A stretch of DNA of 37,262 nt from NCBI GenBank assembly GCA_944390795.1, contig CALXRI010000029.1, positions 1 to 37,262 of the forward strand. Reading direction: 5' to 3'. Below the pieces are notes generated by a model. It was not told the origin of the DNA and did not search any database. It saw only the letters and a list, made by a program, of their open reading frames with translations. Numbering within the stretch: position 1 is the stretch's first letter; each line of letters opens with the position of its first letter. A program made the translations under genes and the position numbers. This stretch comes from an uncultured Victivallales bacterium (GTDB lineage Bacteria > Verrucomicrobiota > Lentisphaeria > Victivallales > UBA1829). Shown here in pieces: positions 735-37,213 of the stretch.

Positions 735-896
735 ATGAACATCGGCTTACGCAAGATGCGTTTGCGCCGGGTGGAACCGCGGGATGACCGGGATGTCATA
801 AAAGAGCGTCTTTCTCCATTCACGGGACGCAGTCTGAAGCGGAGAGTGTTTTTGGGAAAAAATCACTTGCTGAATGCATCAGGAGGGATTTCATGA
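735..896 (+). CDS. Small Arg-rich protein or leader peptide, 53 aa
   Basis: ATG 735 is preceded by a good ribosome site (AAGGAAAGGG), and the frame runs 53 codons to a TGA at 894-896. The stop overlaps the ATG of the pseudopilin at 893, an arrangement typical of translational coupling. The product is basic, with many Arg and Lys residues, has no signal peptide or membrane segment, and resembles no family I recognise. It could be a real small protein or a leader peptide that sets the translation rate of the pseudopilin. The ribosome site and the overlap are the main support; without a homologue it remains uncertain. Confidence 0.5.
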
Positions 897-1555
897 AATG
901 CCGTTTTACTTTGATCGAGCTTCTCGTCGTGATAGCGATCATCGCGATTCTTGCCGCACTGCTGATGCCTGCGCTGGACAAGGCCCGGAAAGCCGGACAG
1001 GCGGCTTCCTGTCAGTCCAATATGAAACAGCAGGGACTGGCGGTATTCGCCTATGCCATGGATTATAAAGACAATTACCCTGCGAATAGCGCAACCAGTC
1101 CCACCGCAGGATACGTGCCGGCATTTTTGAATCCTTATCTGACGAATGGAAAAGTTGTTCAGAGCTCAAATTACAATTATTTCAATCCTTTTGTTGTGAA
1201 AACATCCCCCGCTTCCAAAGCATTTTACTGCCCCTCCCGGGATAATACCCGGCTTACCGTTCAACATTCGGATTACGGCGCCAAACATGGCGCCTGGTGG
1301 TCTGGCGATGTCAATGGCTGGATAAAGGTCAAAGTCTCCACTCTGAAAAAACCGTCCGTTTCCATACTCAGACTGGATACCATTTACGGGATCGGTGTCA
1401 ATTACGGGGCAGTGAATTTCGATTATGTCCATCAGATTCATTACCGCCACCGGAACCGCAGCAACGGCCTGTATTTTGACGGTCATGTGTCGACATTCGC
1501 CAACCCGCCGGGAATGACCAACGCCAATATCCGCAACTACATGAAAATCGAATGA
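893..1555 (+). CDS. Pseudopilin-like protein with H-X9-DG motif
   Basis: This 220-residue protein starts with a very short leader (MKCR) followed by FTLIELLVV and a hydrophobic helix of about 20 residues. That is the N-terminal methylation/cleavage motif of type IV pilins and type II secretion pseudopilins (TIGR02532-like). His186, Asp196 and Gly197 form the H-X9-DG motif of the TIGR04294 family. A Cys pair (C37-type AASC and FYCPS) lies in the globular part. The ATG is set by AGGAGG at 881-886. Residue -1 is Arg, not the usual Gly. The first 60 codons are close at DNA level to the pseudopilin at 36476, while the globular part differs. It probably sits at the inner membrane or in a pseudopilus; its link to glycan breakdown is inferred from gene order. 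Confidence 0.9.
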
Positions 1556-11724: not shown

Positions 11725-11813
11725 GAAATCAGGATCACGGATTTTGAACAGCCATGCGGCACACTGCAGGATGGCATGCTGCCGCGGATGGAATTCAGGA
11801 AAGGAGCGATTTT

Positions 11814-12614
11814 ATGAGAAAGCGGGATGGCGGTGGAAATACCGGCGGGCCGACAGGATGGCGAAAAGATTATACAGTTTTTACATTGATCGAGCTGCTT
11901 GTCGTGATTGCGATCATCGCGATTCTGGCGGGGATGCTGCTCCCCGCGCTGAATTCGGCCAGGGAAAAAGGAAAAAGCATTGCCTGTGTCAACCGGCAGA
12001 AGCAGATCGGAATCGCCCTGCATCTCTATGCCGATGATTACAAGGGATATTATCCCCCCTGGCGCACGAATGAAACCGGAGCGGACGGTCCGGCTTATAT
12101 TGAAAACAAATTCTGGCACCGGGGATTGACGTCGCTCGGATATACCACGAAAAACAACTTCATCTGCTATCCGAGAAACGCGACAGGCTCCCAGATCGAC
12201 GTCAACGGGAATACCAGCAACAACATCGGATACGGCTACAATTACGGGGGAATCGGCGGCGCCGCGTGCTCCTCCGGAACCGGCGCGGCAAACTATGTGA
12301 CCCCCGCCAACATCCGTGAAATCAGGAAGCCTTCCAAAGTCTATGTCACCATGGATACCGTTTTCCGCGACAGCTCCGGGATCATTACAGGCAAGGGGCT
12401 GGAAACCGTTTACTGGGGGGGATATTACAACGGCGCCGGGATGCCTGACGCGTTCCGCCACGAGGGGGTTGTCAACATCCTGTTCGGCGACGGGAGATGC
12501 ACGGGAGTCAAGGTGTCCAGCAGATGGGATCCCTATCTGACGTTGAAGGCGTGGAGCCCGACCAAGCCCTACGCCTGCTGGACCGGCGGGCGCCATCCCG
12601 CGGAAATCGAATGA
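11814..12614 (+). CDS. Pseudopilin-like protein with H-X9-DG motif
   Basis: 266 residues from ATG 11814, chosen because GGAAAGGAG lies just upstream; the open frame continues further 5' but without a ribosome site. The leader is about 24 residues, basic and Gly-rich, then [20 protein letters not shown] starts the hydrophobic pilin helix. Residue -1 is Val rather than Gly. H216, D226 and G227 form the H-X9-DG motif. The middle is rich in Gly, Asn and Tyr (for example [11 protein letters not shown]), typical of the exposed part. It heads an operon of glycan-processing genes in the same way as the one at 893. Membrane or pseudopilus location is known for the N-terminal motif; its role here is unknown. 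Confidence 0.88.
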
Positions 12615-12650: not shown

Positions 12651-14324
12651 ATGATGTCGCTGAAACACTGCTGGAGCATTCTGCTCCTCTCGGCCGCATT
12701 CGTCTGTTTCGCAGACGCCGGCGGCGTTTTCCAGGTCGGATTCACCGGAAAGAATCCCTTTTCCGATCCGAAAAAAATCACTGTGGCATGGTCGGAAGCC
12801 GACAAGGCCGCCGGATTCGTCATTCCCGGGAAATATTCCGTTGAAACCTTTCGGACGGAAGCTTCCATGCTGTTCGACGATGCGAACCTCCATATTCTTC
12901 TGACGGGATATTCCCGTCCGCAGTTCAAGGCGCCGAAACGGGAACGGAGCGTCTTCGAAGACAATAATTTCGAGGTGTTTCTTGCGCCGGAGGGAACGGA
13001 GAACACCTACTGGCAGATCGCTGTCGCGCAGTCGGGGAAAGTGTATACCGCGAAATCTTCCGGCGGCAAACGGGCGCAAACCGCTCTCCCGGGACTGCAA
13101 TGTTCGGTGAAGAGAGACTGGGCATTCTGGCGCGCCATGCTTTCCGTTCCGCTTTCCTCGCTCGACATTGCGGCGCCTCCCGCTGGGAAAACGCTGCCGA
13201 TGCGCTTCAATTTCTGCCGTCGCAATATCGATTTCCCCGCAAAGGACGGGGAAAACGCCTCCTTCGCGGTTCTGGATTCCCTGAACTATCACAATCCGGC
13301 GGAATGGAATACGGCAGTGCTTTCCCGTGAAAAGACACGTGACGCGAAGACCTGGTATTCCCGTTCGGAGCGGGTGCGGATCAATCTGATTCCGGACAGC
13401 GTTTTTGCCGTCGCGAAGGACAACCGTCTTGCCGCATGGTATGTGAATCCGCGTGATGTGGCAAGAAAGGAGACGGCGGAGTTTTCCGGACAGTGGGTGA
13501 TGCGTTGCGGCAACAACGCCTATCAGGTTCTCACCGCCGCGGTGCCTTCCCTTGAGGAGGGGAAGACATACACGCTCCGGATCCGCGCCCGGCAGTTCGG
13601 CGGAGCCAATGCTATCGGCGCGATGCAGCTCCGGAGACGTCCGGACGGAAAGAACGGTTACCGGGAAGGGAAAAGCATCGTATGGCGTCTGCCCGTGACC
13701 GATGAGTTCAGGGAATACACGCTGCATTTCGTCGCGGAAAAAGACGCGGTGGCGATCTCGTTCTACCGCTTCGGGGACAGGAAGCCGGAGAGCGGCGTGG
13801 AGTATGCCTCCATCCGGCTTTACGAAGGAAAACTTTCCAGCTTTGAAATCCGCAAGGTTTCCCGCATGGGCGGCAAGTCCGTCATGCCGGGCACGGACAT
13901 GCTTCCGCCTCCGAATCTCTACGGACGGATGGAAGAAACGCTTTCCGCGCTTGCCGTCTGCGAGGATCTGGTCCTGACGCGCGATCCGCTGGAACTGTTC
14001 TCCGGGCTCAACGTCCACTGCGACAGCATCACCACGACAGGAAACGATGCCGATCTCTACTATACCGACGGCGATCCTGCCGCGATTCAGAAGAAGCTGG
14101 AGGACGGGTCCTACGATCTTTATCTGGTCGGGCGCAACATCGGGAAGATCGGGAAAGGGCTTGCCGCCTACATGGAAAAGAATGTGAAAAACGGCGCCGG
14201 ACTTCTGATCGCCAACGCTTCCGCGTACGGAAATCTGGCATCTCTGGTAAAACAGGGACGCGTTCCGGAAAAATGTCTGGAGGGAATTTTCCGGGGCGAC
14301 GGCGGAGTATTTGATTTTTTTTGA
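12651..14324 (+). CDS. Secreted CBM9-like protein, N-terminal part of a split glycosidase
   Basis: 557 residues to a TGA at 14322-14324. AGGAG at 12641-12645 serves ATG 12651 or 12654. A signal peptide follows (SILLLSAAFVCFADA). Residues about 25-220 look like a CBM9/DOMON-type carbohydrate-binding beta-sandwich (EDNNFEVFLAPEG...YWQIAVAQSG), residues about 250-400 like a second beta-sandwich, and residues from about 430 begin a glutamine-amidotransferase-like fold (YLVGRNIGKIGKGLAAYM...NGAGLLIANAS). That fold stops abruptly at the TGA and its next strand, RGRIIFYN, is found in the -1 frame of the following gene. The gene therefore looks like the first part of one protein of about 1506 residues, joined by frameshifting or broken by a one-base loss in a T tract. 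Confidence 0.85.
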   Translation: MMSLKHCWSILLLSAAFVCFADAGGVFQVGFTGKNPFSDPKKITVAWSEADKAAGFVIPGKYSVETFRTEASMLFDDANLHILLTGYSRPQFKAPKRERSVFEDNNFEVFLAPEGTENTYWQIAVAQSGKVYTAKSSGGKRAQTALPGLQCSVKRDWAFWRAMLSVPLSSLDIAAPPAGKTLPMRFNFCRRNIDFPAKDGENASFAVLDSLNYHNPAEWNTAVLSREKTRDAKTWYSRSERVRINLIPDSVFAVAKDNRLAAWYVNPRDVARKETAEFSGQWVMRCGNNAYQVLTAAVPSLEEGKTYTLRIRARQFGGANAIGAMQLRRRPDGKNGYREGKSIVWRLPVTDEFREYTLHFVAEKDAVAISFYRFGDRKPESGVEYASIRLYEGKLSSFEIRKVSRMGGKSVMPGTDMLPPPNLYGRMEETLSALAVCEDLVLTRDPLELFSGLNVHCDSITTTGNDADLYYTDGDPAAIQKKLEDGSYDLYLVGRNIGKIGKGLAAYMEKNVKNGAGLLIANASAYGNLASLVKQGRVPEKCLEGIFRGDGGVFDFF

Positions 14325-14357
14325 GACCCTCCCCCGGAAAAGTCGTCACGGGGGAGG
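14315..14357 (+). other. Candidate programmed -1 frameshift site
   Basis: In the upstream frame the bases read GAT TTT TTT TGA, so T-TTT-TTT (14315-14321) is a slippery heptamer with the stop directly behind it. A one-base backward slip gives TTT TTT TTG AGA and enters the frame of the next gene. Six bases after the heptamer a 9-bp GC-rich stem begins: CCTCCCCCG (14328-14336) with CGGGGGAGG (14349-14357), loop 12 bases. Heptamer, spacer and stem fit the known layout of bacterial -1 sites. The T8 run could also cause RNA polymerase slippage. A simple indel or read error in the homopolymer is the alternative. Confidence 0.6.
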
Positions 14358-17170
14358 TTGTCAGCGGCAGAGGACGCATCATTTTCTACAACTCGTTCCG
14401 TCCGCAGGGTTTTCTGTTCCGCGAGGCGTATGAGACGGACAGCCAGTTTCCGTTTGACATGCATGCCAATGCATGGCTGGCGCGGCTCTGCCATTATGCG
14501 GCGGGAGCCATAGAAAGAGGGTTTTCCGCCTGCGGCGTTTCCGGAGGCCGGGTTTCGGTTTCCTGTGCGGAAGGGGTCGGCGGAACCCGTCTGGAATGGC
14601 GTCTTTCCGCAAAGGACGGAACCAGATGTGCGCAGGGCGTGGCCCCGGTGCGTTCCGGAAAGGCGGAAATCGCCCCGGAATTGAATCGCGGCGGAAGACA
14701 CCTGCTGTCCCTGCGTCTGCTTGACGGGAAAGGCTCGGTGCTGGACTACTGCGCCGTGACGCTGCGGAAGGAGGGCCCCCGGATTGATCTTCTTGAAGAT
14801 GTCCGGAAGTACAACACCGCCGCCGTCCCGGCTGAGATCCGTTTCCGGGCGTCCGGCGTCCGGAACGGGATGAAAGCTCTCTGGACGCTTGAGGATTTTT
14901 CCGGGAGGATTCTCGAACGCGGCGAACAGGAAGCGTTGCCGGAGGGGCGTTTTCAAGTTCCTCTTTCCGCGCTTTTCACCGGTTTTGCACGCCTGAAGAT
15001 GACGCTCCTGGAAAACGGCGCGCTTCTTGACAGCGCGCGGATTCCGGTCTACGTGCAGGACCGCGACCGTCTCCGGCTGCTTTCCGACTTCACGCCCTGC
15101 GTCTGGCCGCCTGAGGGATATTTGAGCCGGGAGTATGCCGATGCCGTGAATCTCCGTCTGGAGGAGATCGGAATCCGGAGTCTCGGGTTTGTGCTGGGGG
15201 ATAAAAGCCGTGCACTGGCCTCCGGAATGGGAATCGCGTCCGGCGCGGCGGTCGGCGGCGGGGCGCGTTTCATCGGCTGGAAACAGAAATCCGGCATCCG
15301 CGCGCAGGCGATCAACACGGAAGAGGCGCGCCGGGAAATCGCCGCACAGGCGGAGATTGCTGCGGAACGCGCCCGGCTGGCGGGTCCCGTCGGCTATCAG
15401 ATCTGCGACGAGCCCGGACTCTGCCGCAAAGGCGAGGCGGATGAACTGGATTCGACCCCGGAAAATCTTGCGGAATACCGGAGACGCATGAAGGAGAAAT
15501 ACGGCTCCGTCGGACATTTCAACCGGACATGCGGCAGCTCCTATTCATCGTTTGACGAGCTTCGTCCAGGTCTGATCGCCCGCGCAAGGGCGGAAGGACG
15601 TTTCGCCGAGTTCATCGAATGGCGGAACTTCAATACCGATCGCTGGTGCGAAGTGTTCCGTCTGATGTCCGACAGCGTGAAGAAAAAGGATCCCGGCGCC
15701 CGCTTTTCCATCCCGAACACCTTTGGGCAGGGGGCGCTGGGCGGAAACGACTACTGGCGTCTTCTGACGAAAGCCGGCGTTGACTTTTCGCAGGAATACA
15801 CCTCCATGGTCTACATGGGCGGAATGGAAAACCCGAGCCCGATCCATGATTTTGACGAATTCTACCGTTCCTTTGCGCCGGGAATGCGCCTCTGGGGATA
15901 TGTCGGATATGTCAATACCCGGTCCCGGCTGATGTTTCAGCCGTGGTGGTTCGCCGCGCACCGCTACGGCGGATTCACATGGTTTGCCGCGCACGGGCCT
16001 TCTGTCCGGAGCGACGGGCTGCGCGCCGCCTGGAATCTGGTCGATGTGCCGGGAAACGGTCTTACCGCCGACGCCGCGCATCTGAAGGATGCCCTGAATG
16101 GTTCCGGACTTCTGGACGGCATGGGGCGGCTTTTTCTGGAATATGACTGGGCGCCGCGGAAGATCGCCGTCTATTATTCCCATAACAGCATGCTGGTGAA
16201 TTTCTGTCTCGGGAGTGAAACGCGCGAGGGGGAAATCGGAAAGAGCGGCCCGCTGCATGACTATTTCCACAGCCGGCACTGTCTCCGCTATCTTCTGGAG
16301 GAAATGCTGTATCAGTATGACTTTGTCGCGCCGGAACAGGTGGAGAAAGGTCTGCTTTCCTCCTTTCAGGTTCTGTTTCTGCCGGGGATCTCCGCTCTTT
16401 CGGATCGGGAAACCGCCGCGCTGAAACGTTTCCTGCGCGCAGGCGGAACGATTGTCGCCGATTCTCCGCCCGGACTCTACGACGAACTGGGGCGGAAACG
16501 CAGTTCCGCTCCTCTGGAAGGCATCCGGGGCGTGCATCTGACGGGAAGACCGTTCGATGACCGCGACGCCGGACTTCGCGGAAAAATCCGTTCCCTTCTC
16601 GATTCCGCCGGGGTGTCTCCCGTTCTGGAGTCGGACCGGTCCGCTCCTGTCGCGGGGCGTGAAGCCATGCATTTCCGGAACGGCATCATGAACGTCTTCG
16701 TCATCCTGCGGAATCCGGTCCGTGCGGACCGGTCAGGCGTTCAGAAACTGCGTTTCCCGTGCGAAGGGCATGTTTACGATCTCCTGCTCGGAAAATATCT
16801 GGGAAGGGGACGCGAGGCGCAGGCCCTTCTGACGGAAGAGCGTCCCGCAGCCGTTTTCGGCGTGTATCCGTACCGGGTGAAACGCCTGAGTGTCACTCTG
16901 CCCGGCCGCATCAGGGCAGGAAGCGATCTTGCCGCGGAAATTGCGGCCGAGCCCGATTCCGGTTCGCCGGGCAGGCACCTTTTCCACGCGGAGCTTGTAT
17001 TCCCCGGACGCAGGACGCGTCACCATATGAAACGGAATCTCCCGGCGGAGAACGGCGCGCTTGCGTTCCGCTTCCGCATGGCGTTCAACGACCCGAAGGG
17101 CCGCTGGATTCTCCGGGTGAAGGATGTCATGACCGGTATGACGCGGGAAAAGAGTTTTATTCTGGAATGA
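14321..17170 (+). CDS. GH42-like glycosidase, C-terminal part of a split gene
   Basis: 949 codons if counted from the TTG at 14321. The frame is open only from 14315, there is no good ribosome site near the TTG, and the first residues complete a domain begun in the previous gene, so entry by -1 frameshift is the better reading. After a beta-sandwich (about 60-230) comes a TIM barrel of the GH42/GHL type (about 240-600). It holds YQICDEP with E364 as a possible acid/base, and a stretch with CGSSYSSFDELRP typical of the family. From about 640 follows a beta-galactosidase trimerization or amidotransferase-like domain (VLFLPGISALSDRETAALKRFL-type), then a beta-rich end. Substrate unknown. It is followed by the GHL6-like gene 15 bases later. 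Confidence 0.8.
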   Translation: MRPSPGKVVTGEVVSGRGRIIFYNSFRPQGFLFREAYETDSQFPFDMHANAWLARLCHYAAGAIERGFSACGVSGGRVSVSCAEGVGGTRLEWRLSAKDGTRCAQGVAPVRSGKAEIAPELNRGGRHLLSLRLLDGKGSVLDYCAVTLRKEGPRIDLLEDVRKYNTAAVPAEIRFRASGVRNGMKALWTLEDFSGRILERGEQEALPEGRFQVPLSALFTGFARLKMTLLENGALLDSARIPVYVQDRDRLRLLSDFTPCVWPPEGYLSREYADAVNLRLEEIGIRSLGFVLGDKSRALASGMGIASGAAVGGGARFIGWKQKSGIRAQAINTEEARREIAAQAEIAAERARLAGPVGYQICDEPGLCRKGEADELDSTPENLAEYRRRMKEKYGSVGHFNRTCGSSYSSFDELRPGLIARARAEGRFAEFIEWRNFNTDRWCEVFRLMSDSVKKKDPGARFSIPNTFGQGALGGNDYWRLLTKAGVDFSQEYTSMVYMGGMENPSPIHDFDEFYRSFAPGMRLWGYVGYVNTRSRLMFQPWWFAAHRYGGFTWFAAHGPSVRSDGLRAAWNLVDVPGNGLTADAAHLKDALNGSGLLDGMGRLFLEYDWAPRKIAVYYSHNSMLVNFCLGSETREGEIGKSGPLHDYFHSRHCLRYLLEEMLYQYDFVAPEQVEKGLLSSFQVLFLPGISALSDRETAALKRFLRAGGTIVADSPPGLYDELGRKRSSAPLEGIRGVHLTGRPFDDRDAGLRGKIRSLLDSAGVSPVLESDRSAPVAGREAMHFRNGIMNVFVILRNPVRADRSGVQKLRFPCEGHVYDLLLGKYLGRGREAQALLTEERPAAVFGVYPYRVKRLSVTLPGRIRAGSDLAAEIAAEPDSGSPGRHLFHAELVFPGRRTRHHMKRNLPAENGALAFRFRMAFNDPKGRWILRVKDVMTGMTREKSFILE

Positions 17171-17185: not shown

Positions 17186-19282
17186 ATGGATCCGTTTGAA
17201 GCACGATTCACTTTCTTCTGGTACAATGACCGGGAAATTTTTCACGACTCCCAGGAGGAGATGGATGCGAAAATCCGGAAGGTTGCCGAACAGGGAATCA
17301 CGCACATCATCACGTTTTCCTGCACGCATTTCCGCTGGTCCTACCGTCCCTGGTGGGACCGGATCAACGCGTGCCTTGCGAAAATCGTAACGGCGGCGCA
17401 CCGCTGCGGCATCCGCGTGATCGAGCATCATTCCGCCGAACTGACCAGTTATCCGGACACGCCGGAAAGGCTTGACCGGATGCGGCGGTATCTGAACGAC
17501 AGGGGATCCTCGGCGGACTCCTGGCCGGGAATCGTCCCGATGCTTCTCGCGCCGGATTCTCCCGCGCTTGCCTGGGCGCAGATCAGCGGGAAGACCCTGC
17601 AGGTGAACGTCACGGGATACGCCGCCACGGGGAAATGCTACAACAATCCGGAGTACCGCAGGGAATACCTGAAATATCTGGAAAGCGTATATGCCACCGG
17701 CGTTGACGGGATCATGACGGACGACGTCCAGTATTACTGCCACTGCCGCTGCGCCCATTGCACCCGTCTGTTCCGGGAAAAATACGGGTATGAACTTCCT
17801 CCCCCGGAGAAATGGGACGCCTGGTTCGGGAACATGCGCGATCCGTCGTTTCTCGCATGGCTGCGCTTCCGCTTTGACTCCACGCATGCGTTTCATGAAG
17901 TTGTCGCCGCGCACTATGAAGCCATGGGCCTGAAACTGCTGCGTCCGAATTATCTTTCTTTTGCAATCACGAGGGACTGGACCGCGTTTTCCGTGGAGAC
18001 CGTGCCGCGCATGGACTGGTTTTTCCAGGAATGCGCAAGATCGTGCGTGATCCGCTATTCCTGGCTGAAAGTCCTGTCGGAGCAGACGCACCGCGCGATG
18101 GTCGCAAGAGCGAGGGGAATTCCGCACGGCATCCTTTTCTATGCCTATGATCCGGAACAGCTTCTCTTTTCCTGGGGAATTTCCATGGTCGCCGGCGCAT
18201 TTTACATCAACACCCCGGAAGGGAAAAGCCGCGAAGTGAACGAGAAGGTCATCCGGGACTTTGAAAAGGCGCATGCCGCGGAACTGTTTCATGCGGAGCC
18301 GATGGCCGAAGTCGGATTCCTCGACTCCCGGGAGAACCGTTTTTTCTCCGCCGGCTATGAAATGTCGCGCATGGAGTTCTGGATGCAGGCCTGCATTCTG
18401 CACAACATCCCCGTGCTCATGCTGGATGCCGGGCGTCCGGAATCCTGGCGGAACTGCCGCACGATCTGCGTGAACGAGGTCAATATCCTGAGCGAAGCGC
18501 AGATCGCGGAGCTGAAGCGTTTTGCGGAGGAGGGGGGGAGCCTGATCCTTTCCGGCATTCCGGGCAATCAGGAGGAGAGCGGCCGGGAGCGCACTCCCGC
18601 GGAAGTGGAACGTCTCTGGGGAATTTCTCTGCGTCCGCCCTCCGGGGAAAAGACTCATGTCGTCAGTTACGGCGCAGGCCGGATCTGCGTGACGGACATC
18701 TCCTTCGGGTATCCCGGACCGGAATCCGAGATTCAGGCGATGTTCGGGAGAAATCATATGGATTTCCCCTATGGGGAAATGCCCTTTGAACTGCTGAAAC
18801 AGATCGGGTTCATCTGCGCAAACACCATCCGGACCGGTAATTGCGCGGTGCCGTCGAATGTGGGGACTCTCTATCGGGGACTGCGGGAAAAGAGCGTCGA
18901 AATCTGTACGATGATCCGCTCTCTCGCTCCGGGGAAGACATTTCGGACGGAACTTCCCGAACTGATGCTGGCGGCGCCTTTCCGCTCGAAGACGGAACGC
19001 TCGATCACGCTCCGGATTCTCAATGCCGGCGGAACGCTTGCGCCTCCGGGAGACGGGAAAGCGGTGTCGCACGACGATCCGATTCCGTGGCGGGATCCGG
19101 GGGAGGGGATCGGCCGGATTGTTCTGGCGCTTCCGGAGGGAATGGAAGATGCCGTCCGCGCCGAACTGTTTCTGCCGTCCGGTGCGCGGGAGAAACTGCA
19201 GTGCCGCCGGCAGGACGGAATGCTTGAAGTCCGGCTGCCATGCGGATTTCTGAAAACGTTTGCCATGGTGAAGATTGTCTGA
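17186..19282 (+). CDS. GHL6-like TIM-barrel glycoside hydrolase
   Basis: 698 residues, no signal peptide, ATG set by AAAGGA just upstream. The first 330 residues look like a TIM barrel of the hypothetical glycosyl hydrolase 6 type: MDAKIRKVAEQGITHIITFS, a strand ending in GVDGIMTDDVQYY with D179 and D180 at the expected active-site position, and a Cys cluster directly after it (CHCRCAHC) that may bind a metal. From about 380 a beta-galactosidase trimerization or amidotransferase-like domain follows (AQIAELKRFAEEGGSLILSG), then a beta-rich end with EKLQCRRQDGMLEVRLP. It sits 15 bases after the GH42-like gene and 21 before the next, in one operon. Probably cytoplasmic; substrate and activity unproven. 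Confidence 0.75.
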   Translation: MDPFEARFTFFWYNDREIFHDSQEEMDAKIRKVAEQGITHIITFSCTHFRWSYRPWWDRINACLAKIVTAAHRCGIRVIEHHSAELTSYPDTPERLDRMRRYLNDRGSSADSWPGIVPMLLAPDSPALAWAQISGKTLQVNVTGYAATGKCYNNPEYRREYLKYLESVYATGVDGIMTDDVQYYCHCRCAHCTRLFREKYGYELPPPEKWDAWFGNMRDPSFLAWLRFRFDSTHAFHEVVAAHYEAMGLKLLRPNYLSFAITRDWTAFSVETVPRMDWFFQECARSCVIRYSWLKVLSEQTHRAMVARARGIPHGILFYAYDPEQLLFSWGISMVAGAFYINTPEGKSREVNEKVIRDFEKAHAAELFHAEPMAEVGFLDSRENRFFSAGYEMSRMEFWMQACILHNIPVLMLDAGRPESWRNCRTICVNEVNILSEAQIAELKRFAEEGGSLILSGIPGNQEESGRERTPAEVERLWGISLRPPSGEKTHVVSYGAGRICVTDISFGYPGPESEIQAMFGRNHMDFPYGEMPFELLKQIGFICANTIRTGNCAVPSNVGTLYRGLREKSVEICTMIRSLAPGKTFRTELPELMLAAPFRSKTERSITLRILNAGGTLAPPGDGKAVSHDDPIPWRDPGEGIGRIVLALPEGMEDAVRAELFLPSGAREKLQCRRQDGMLEVRLPCGFLKTFAMVKIV

Positions 19283-36475: not shown

Positions 36476-37213
36476 ATGAAATGCAAATGTCAACGATCTG
36501 GCGGAATGATACTGGGATCCGCATGTCGGGCGTCCGGTCTGCCTGTGTGTTGCCACTCTTCTCTGCGCGGCAGACGGAATTTCACCCTGGTGGAGCTCCT
36601 TGTCGTGGTCGCGATCATCGCGATTCTGGCGGCGCTGCTGATGCCTGTGCTGGACAAGGCCCGGAAAGCCGGACAGGCGGCTTCCTGCCAGAACAATCTG
36701 AAGCAGCAGGGACTGGCTTTCATCGCTTATGCGGACGATTACAAAGGGAACTATCCGGTGGACACTCCGGGGAAGCCGCACTTGACATGTCTGCCTCTGA
36801 GCCCCTACCTGGGGGTCAAAGGGGAAGTTGAAAACGACCACTACAATCCTCGCCTCGGATATAACGGTTCCAAGGCATTTTACTGTCCGTCGCAAGAGAA
36901 CCTGGCCGGCGGTTCGAACGTCTCGGATTACGGCGGATGGCATAAGAGATGGAACTCCAATAAGTTCGAGACCTTGAAATTTTTTCGTGTGAAACAGCCG
37001 TCAACTTGCTATCTCCGGCTTGATTCGGTTTACGGGTGGGAACCTCAATACCGCAACTGCGGCGTTGTAAATCTCACTGGCGAAGGACATATTGCCTACC
37101 GGCATTCGGATCGGAGCAACAGCCTGTTTTGGGACGGGCACGTCGGAACGTTTTCAGGGAAGAAACTGACTCTGTCGGAGGTCATGTTGAAGATGACGGT
37201 TACCTGTTATTGA
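36476..37213 (+). CDS. Pseudopilin-like protein with H-X9-DG motif, long leader
   Basis: 245 residues from ATG 36476, supported by AAGGAG 8 bases upstream. The leader is about 36 residues, unusually long and Cys-rich (C3, C5, C17, C25, C26), before [19 protein letters not shown]. Residue -1 is Asn. H210, D220 and G221 form the H-X9-DG motif. The segment after the helix ([14 protein letters not shown]) is nearly identical in DNA to the pseudopilin at 893, whereas the globular domain has diverged. Either a recent duplication with fast change in the exposed part, or gene conversion of the 5' part, would explain this. It is 40 bases upstream of the start of the next gene. Confidence 0.85.

Follow-up and report, generated by a model that had tools for sequence, protein, structure and literature searches.

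The locus considered here raises the question of whether a large glycosidase is produced from two reading frames by programmed recoding, or whether a formerly continuous gene has been broken at a run of thymidines. The window, i.e., the whole stretch of 37,262 nt that was analyzed, carries on its plus strand an open reading frame whose translation comprises 557 amino acids plus stop (12651–14324) and whose last codons read GAT TTT TTT TGA. A T8 run (14315–14322, plus strand) contains the slippery heptamer T_TTT_TTT (14315–14321) in register with this frame, and the closing TGA (14322–14324, plus strand) was read in the sequence directly adjacent to it. The -1 frame on the same strand is open from 14315 to 17170, which corresponds to 949 codons counted from a TTG at 14321. 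Six nucleotides past the heptamer begins a GC-rich stem of 9 bp, whose 5' arm CCTCCCCCG (14328–14336, plus strand) and 3' arm CGGGGGAGG (14349–14357, plus strand) are perfectly complementary. A first-pass annotation had interpreted these features as a programmed -1 frameshift site that joins a CBM9-like part to a GH42-like glycosidase, and its account of the heptamer, the adjacent stop, the stem at a distance of six bases and the open frame of 949 codons was confirmed. Neither half of the split gene contains a second lesion and the combined product would comprise about 1506 residues. If the T8 site is used for recoding, this would represent, as far as could be found, an undescribed application in a polysaccharide-degrading enzyme, with one gene giving rise to two extracellular forms; an indel allele would make it an ordinary broken or switchable gene. 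In full-text literature searches, no polysaccharide-utilisation enzyme with described recoding was encountered, which is weak evidence as they covered open-access articles only, and no polysaccharide or glycosidase example is mentioned in the accessible part of a 2016 recoding review (PMC5009743).

The upstream half comprises a signal-peptide-like N-terminus, beta-rich binding-type domains and most of an alpha/beta domain, with boundaries taken from a structure model of the orthologue L006, and the downstream half contains the end of the alpha/beta domain followed by a GH42-like catalytic part. The L006 model is moderately confident (mean pLDDT 57) and was used for domain boundaries alone. In this model, the junction (residue 558) is situated in a low-confidence loop that precedes two more strands and a helix of the alpha/beta domain. 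As the stop is thereby predicted to lie inside this domain, the 557-aa product would be incomplete, which is at odds with the short secreted sugar-binding protein that had been proposed. A Pfam search of both halves identified no named domain in either, and the terms “CBM9-like” and “GH42-like” are therefore used as loose labels; in their favor, orthologue L006 shows a Glyco_hydro_42 match below the Pfam cut-off, and the family profile gave weak to moderate matches (4e-7 to 0.1) to solved beta-galactosidase/GH42-type chains in the PDB. The split gene is located in a polysaccharide-degradation cluster together with heparinase II/III-like, GH95-like, GH2 and DUF1559 pilin-like genes. Three DUF1559/N-methylation (pilin-like) genes are interspersed among the polysaccharide-degrading genes of the window (893–1555, 11754–12614 and 36476–37213). 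An Rfam search at the T8 site returned nothing relevant, and no relatives of the split gene were found in plasmid and viral collections.

tblastn and whole-genome searches identified eight full-length relatives in seven genomes (including three copies in G020 and others in G003 of the same genus, G015, G008, G041 and G017:C105), all of which exhibit one frame of 1466–1525 aa that crosses the junction without a stop, the frame in G003 being known from match coordinates. Judged by this comparison, the two frames together encode a single protein, of which each contributes one half, and the single-frame relatives bear out the assumption of the first-pass annotation that one gene continues across the stop. 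Relatives of the split gene include Lentisphaerae bacterium ADurb.Bin242 as well as Lentisphaeria and Kiritimatiellae MAGs. L006, which belongs to these full-length relatives, represents a syntenic orthologue, as the preceding DUF1559 gene and the two following genes match at 54–61%. In the alignment, the junction falls into a variable linker (DFF|LRPSPGK in the window, SFF|LFGQSGK in L006). The corresponding L006 DNA reads TCG TTT TTC CTT TTC with a longest run of at most T5, and other codons are found at this position in L005, L015, L016 and L017. A T7 run within 45 nt of the junction exists in the distant relative L019, where the frame is intact; this was the sole such case among the relatives read. 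The T8 run, the stop or the stem was present at the junction in no relative whose DNA was read, the nearest of them being about 56% identical, and alleles above about 56% identity were not found in the genomes searched. At this distance, the orthologues thus retain a single frame without T tract and stem, and the T7–8 run, stop and stem, whose conservation the first-pass annotation had suggested to look for, are not conserved. As every full-length relative keeps one frame, a one-base change is considered likelier than a programmed slip. In a further relative, G023:C152:987-5451, the frame change does not coincide with the T8 position and falls between query residues 263 and 281 of the downstream half, indicating that frame breaks are not tied to the T8 site. 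The codons TTT TTT TTG are rarely used for Phe-Phe-Leu in this genome (2 of 175), which does not discriminate between the readings because all of the hypotheses predict a long run.

The geometry of the site nevertheless had to be weighed against these findings. T8 runs as such are not enriched in the window (3 observed, 3.3 expected). Of 569,805 codon positions in coding regions of this genome, only 383 (0.067%) are followed by a perfect 9-bp stem at a distance of 5–9 nt. The 51-nt fold starting at the stop reaches -23.9 kcal/mol, compared to an average of -15.6 for shuffled sequences (z -3.1), with 1 of 200 shuffles being as stable; among the coding 51-mers of this genome, 0.85% fold to -23.9 kcal/mol or better. 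A 9-bp stem at 5–9 nt accompanies two of the 65 in-register T_TTT_TTT sites of this genome. The second of these coincides with the first codons of an ORF which probably does not represent a gene, and its run and hairpin, in our reading, resemble a terminator region; the T8 site of the split gene is the only convincing one among the 65. In addition, a Shine-Dalgarno-like GGAG, which was absent from the first-pass annotation, is found at 14304–14307 of the plus strand, 7 nt 5' of the heptamer and 13 nt 5' of the TTG in the downstream frame. It is possibly a chance occurrence. The GGAG is closer to the heptamer than the corresponding element in dnaX. Taken together, heptamer, stop, rare stem and GGAG give the site the outline of a dnaX-like signal.

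It was therefore considered whether programmed -1 ribosomal frameshifting on U_UUU_UUU, aided by the stem and perhaps the GGAG, generates products of 557 and 1506 aa. In E. coli, U_UU.U_UU.U is one of the motifs on which frameshifting can be measured, and stimulatory elements begin 5–8 nt downstream (PMC4066793), which is in agreement with a perfect stem at a 6-nt spacer behind an in-register heptamer with adjacent stop. Sites of the dnaX, IS911 and IS3 type share with the T8 site a slippery heptamer, a nearby stop, a hairpin 6 nt downstream and an SD-like element upstream (PMC4066793). They differ from it in that its heptamer consists of U only instead of A_AAA_AAG, that it is unconserved in relatives and that it belongs to a secreted enzyme. 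According to the recoding review, ribosomes of E. coli shift far less readily on U_UUU_UUU than on A_AAA_AAG (PMC5009743). Furthermore, the same linker folds as strongly in single-frame relatives (-26.2 to -28.6 kcal/mol in L011, -22.7 in L006 and -20.9 in L005), and less weight was consequently given to the stem; the DNA of these relatives is GC-rich. With the run, stop and stem lacking in the relatives read and a short form that would end in an incomplete domain, programmed frameshifting appears unlikely, even though the geometry described in the first-pass annotation fits.

The same GGAG could also serve as the Shine-Dalgarno sequence for separate translation of the downstream frame, coupled to that of the upstream frame. 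In this scenario, initiation would occur at the TTG, which overlaps the upstream-frame stop (TTGA) and is preceded by the GGAG at 13 nt. However, TTG is a weak start codon and the spacing is long, the product would start inside a domain and would not carry a signal peptide, and the relatives are fused. Translational coupling is thus regarded as very improbable.

Instead, the locus probably represents a single-frame gene that was broken by a one-base indel at the T tract, with assembly error accounting for a minor part of this assessment. The loss of one base, which the first-pass annotation had listed as the plain alternative, fits at least as well as the programmed slip. In this model, the product of the locus would be a single secreted GH42-like enzyme with several domains and about 1506 residues. 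Its reading frame would originally have been continuous until a one-base change at the T tract interrupted it, at a position that corresponds to the loop preceding the final strands of the alpha/beta domain. The indel might have arisen by replication slippage in the tract or by a base loss that fused two shorter T runs, and stalling of replication at the adjacent hairpin could have favored it. In the population that was sampled, the allele would have reached fixation or a high frequency, and, apart from chance slippage of RNA polymerase or ribosomes on T8, little full-length enzyme would be produced. T runs have been described as hypermutable (PMC1088944), and we infer mutation as the cause of the break. 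The continuity of the homologues through the T8 site, the position of the stop inside a domain and the frame break elsewhere in G023:C152 are in support of an indel. Against it stand the rarity of a stem at this spacing, the dnaX-like placement of the stop right after the run and the lack of a second lesion in both halves. For homologue-validated singleton frame changes, the authors of GeneTack assume errors or indels as a rule (PMC3711429). Their singletons and phase-variation clusters have in common with the T8 site a homopolymer frame change and continuous homologues (PMC3711429). In contrast to these phase-variation clusters, the T8 site is known from one allele; reversible length switching would be compatible with it. 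It is possible that the indel allele is somewhat leaky owing to slippage, which would be intermediate between these readings.

A survey of frame breaks covering 2.75 of 3.44 Mb (80%) of the genome in stretches, in which A/T runs of 8 or longer and G/C runs of 7 or longer were counted, provided an estimate of their base rate. Long homopolymer runs within intact coding sequence amounted to 83, many of them A/T8. Ten frame-change candidates were flagged and only two of them resemble one gene in two pieces, one being the T8 site and the other an A12 run of contig C18. The remaining candidates could be explained on inspection as ordinary junctions between genes, as overlaps or as antisense ORFs. 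A homopolymer-independent search of about 2156 coding ORFs, performed with a detector based on codon statistics that may miss short or weakly coding cases, revealed no further convincing case. Since homopolymer errors are thus not widespread in the assembly, the T8 run probably represents a real allele, and assembly error is less likely to be the cause of the break in a genome that is otherwise clean, with one other convincing break.

The survey also bears on transcriptional slippage, in which RNA polymerase would add a U on T8 and a minority of mRNAs would encode the full-length enzyme, either as a functional mechanism or as a rescue. Slippage has been described for uninterrupted A or T runs of about 9 or more, in some species 8 (PMC1088944), which places the T8 run at the lower limit. 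In tssM of Citrobacter rodentium, an A11 run works in this way (PMC4256274). As at the T8 site, the homopolymer is located just before a premature stop and an added base could restore the frame, but the run consists of A11 rather than T8. The A12-interrupted glycosidase of the same genome, which is out of frame and yet conserved in G002 and G003, lends support to slippage and constitutes the closer parallel to tssM. As the T8 run is not conserved in relatives and many other A/T8 runs are found inside intact genes, transcriptional slippage at the T8 site is considered rather improbable.

The A12 gene is encoded on the minus strand of contig C18 (L135:16146-19993; run at 18778–18789). Its upstream frame contains CBM_4_9-like stretches and ends just after the run. 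Beyond this stop, the -1 frame remains open for another 874 codons, which encode the catalytic part and, at the C-terminus, a CBM9_1 domain. In G002 and G003, which are sister species, the open downstream frame (903 aa) likewise does not begin until close to the run; in G001, the homologue is fused (1235 aa). The frames of the G002, G003 and G012 homologues were taken from match coordinates. According to alignment lengths, the net length over a 331-nt stretch differs from G000 by -1, -1 and -2 bases in G002, G003 and G001, respectively, which would fit A11, A11 and an in-frame A10, provided that the indel is located in the run. Downstream of the run, DNA identity to sister species is 94% and 89%, and protein identity 95% and 91%. 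A rough count from these figures gives a dN/dS near 0.1, and the downstream frame therefore appears to be under purifying selection though out of frame in three species. These comparisons imply slippage or length switching at A12 as the natural reading, for which the tssM poly-A run is a precedent for slippage (PMC4256274). The A12 gene is thus a more interesting lead than the T8 site, and a testable one, as it offers a poly-A-interrupted glycosidase that is split between frames in three congeneric species and apparently under purifying selection. It is conceivable, albeit rather doubtful, that in this genus the frames of several large secreted glycosidases are interrupted by A/T runs where domains adjoin, as with T8 and its stem or with A12 and its length variants in sister species, and that ribosomal or transcriptional slippage or tract-length switching sets the amount of full-length enzyme. 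In another genus, the A12-gene homologue G012:C7:23824-27034 encodes its binding part in one frame and its catalytic part in another; the two matches are separated by 22 nt, and this junction was perhaps broken independently.
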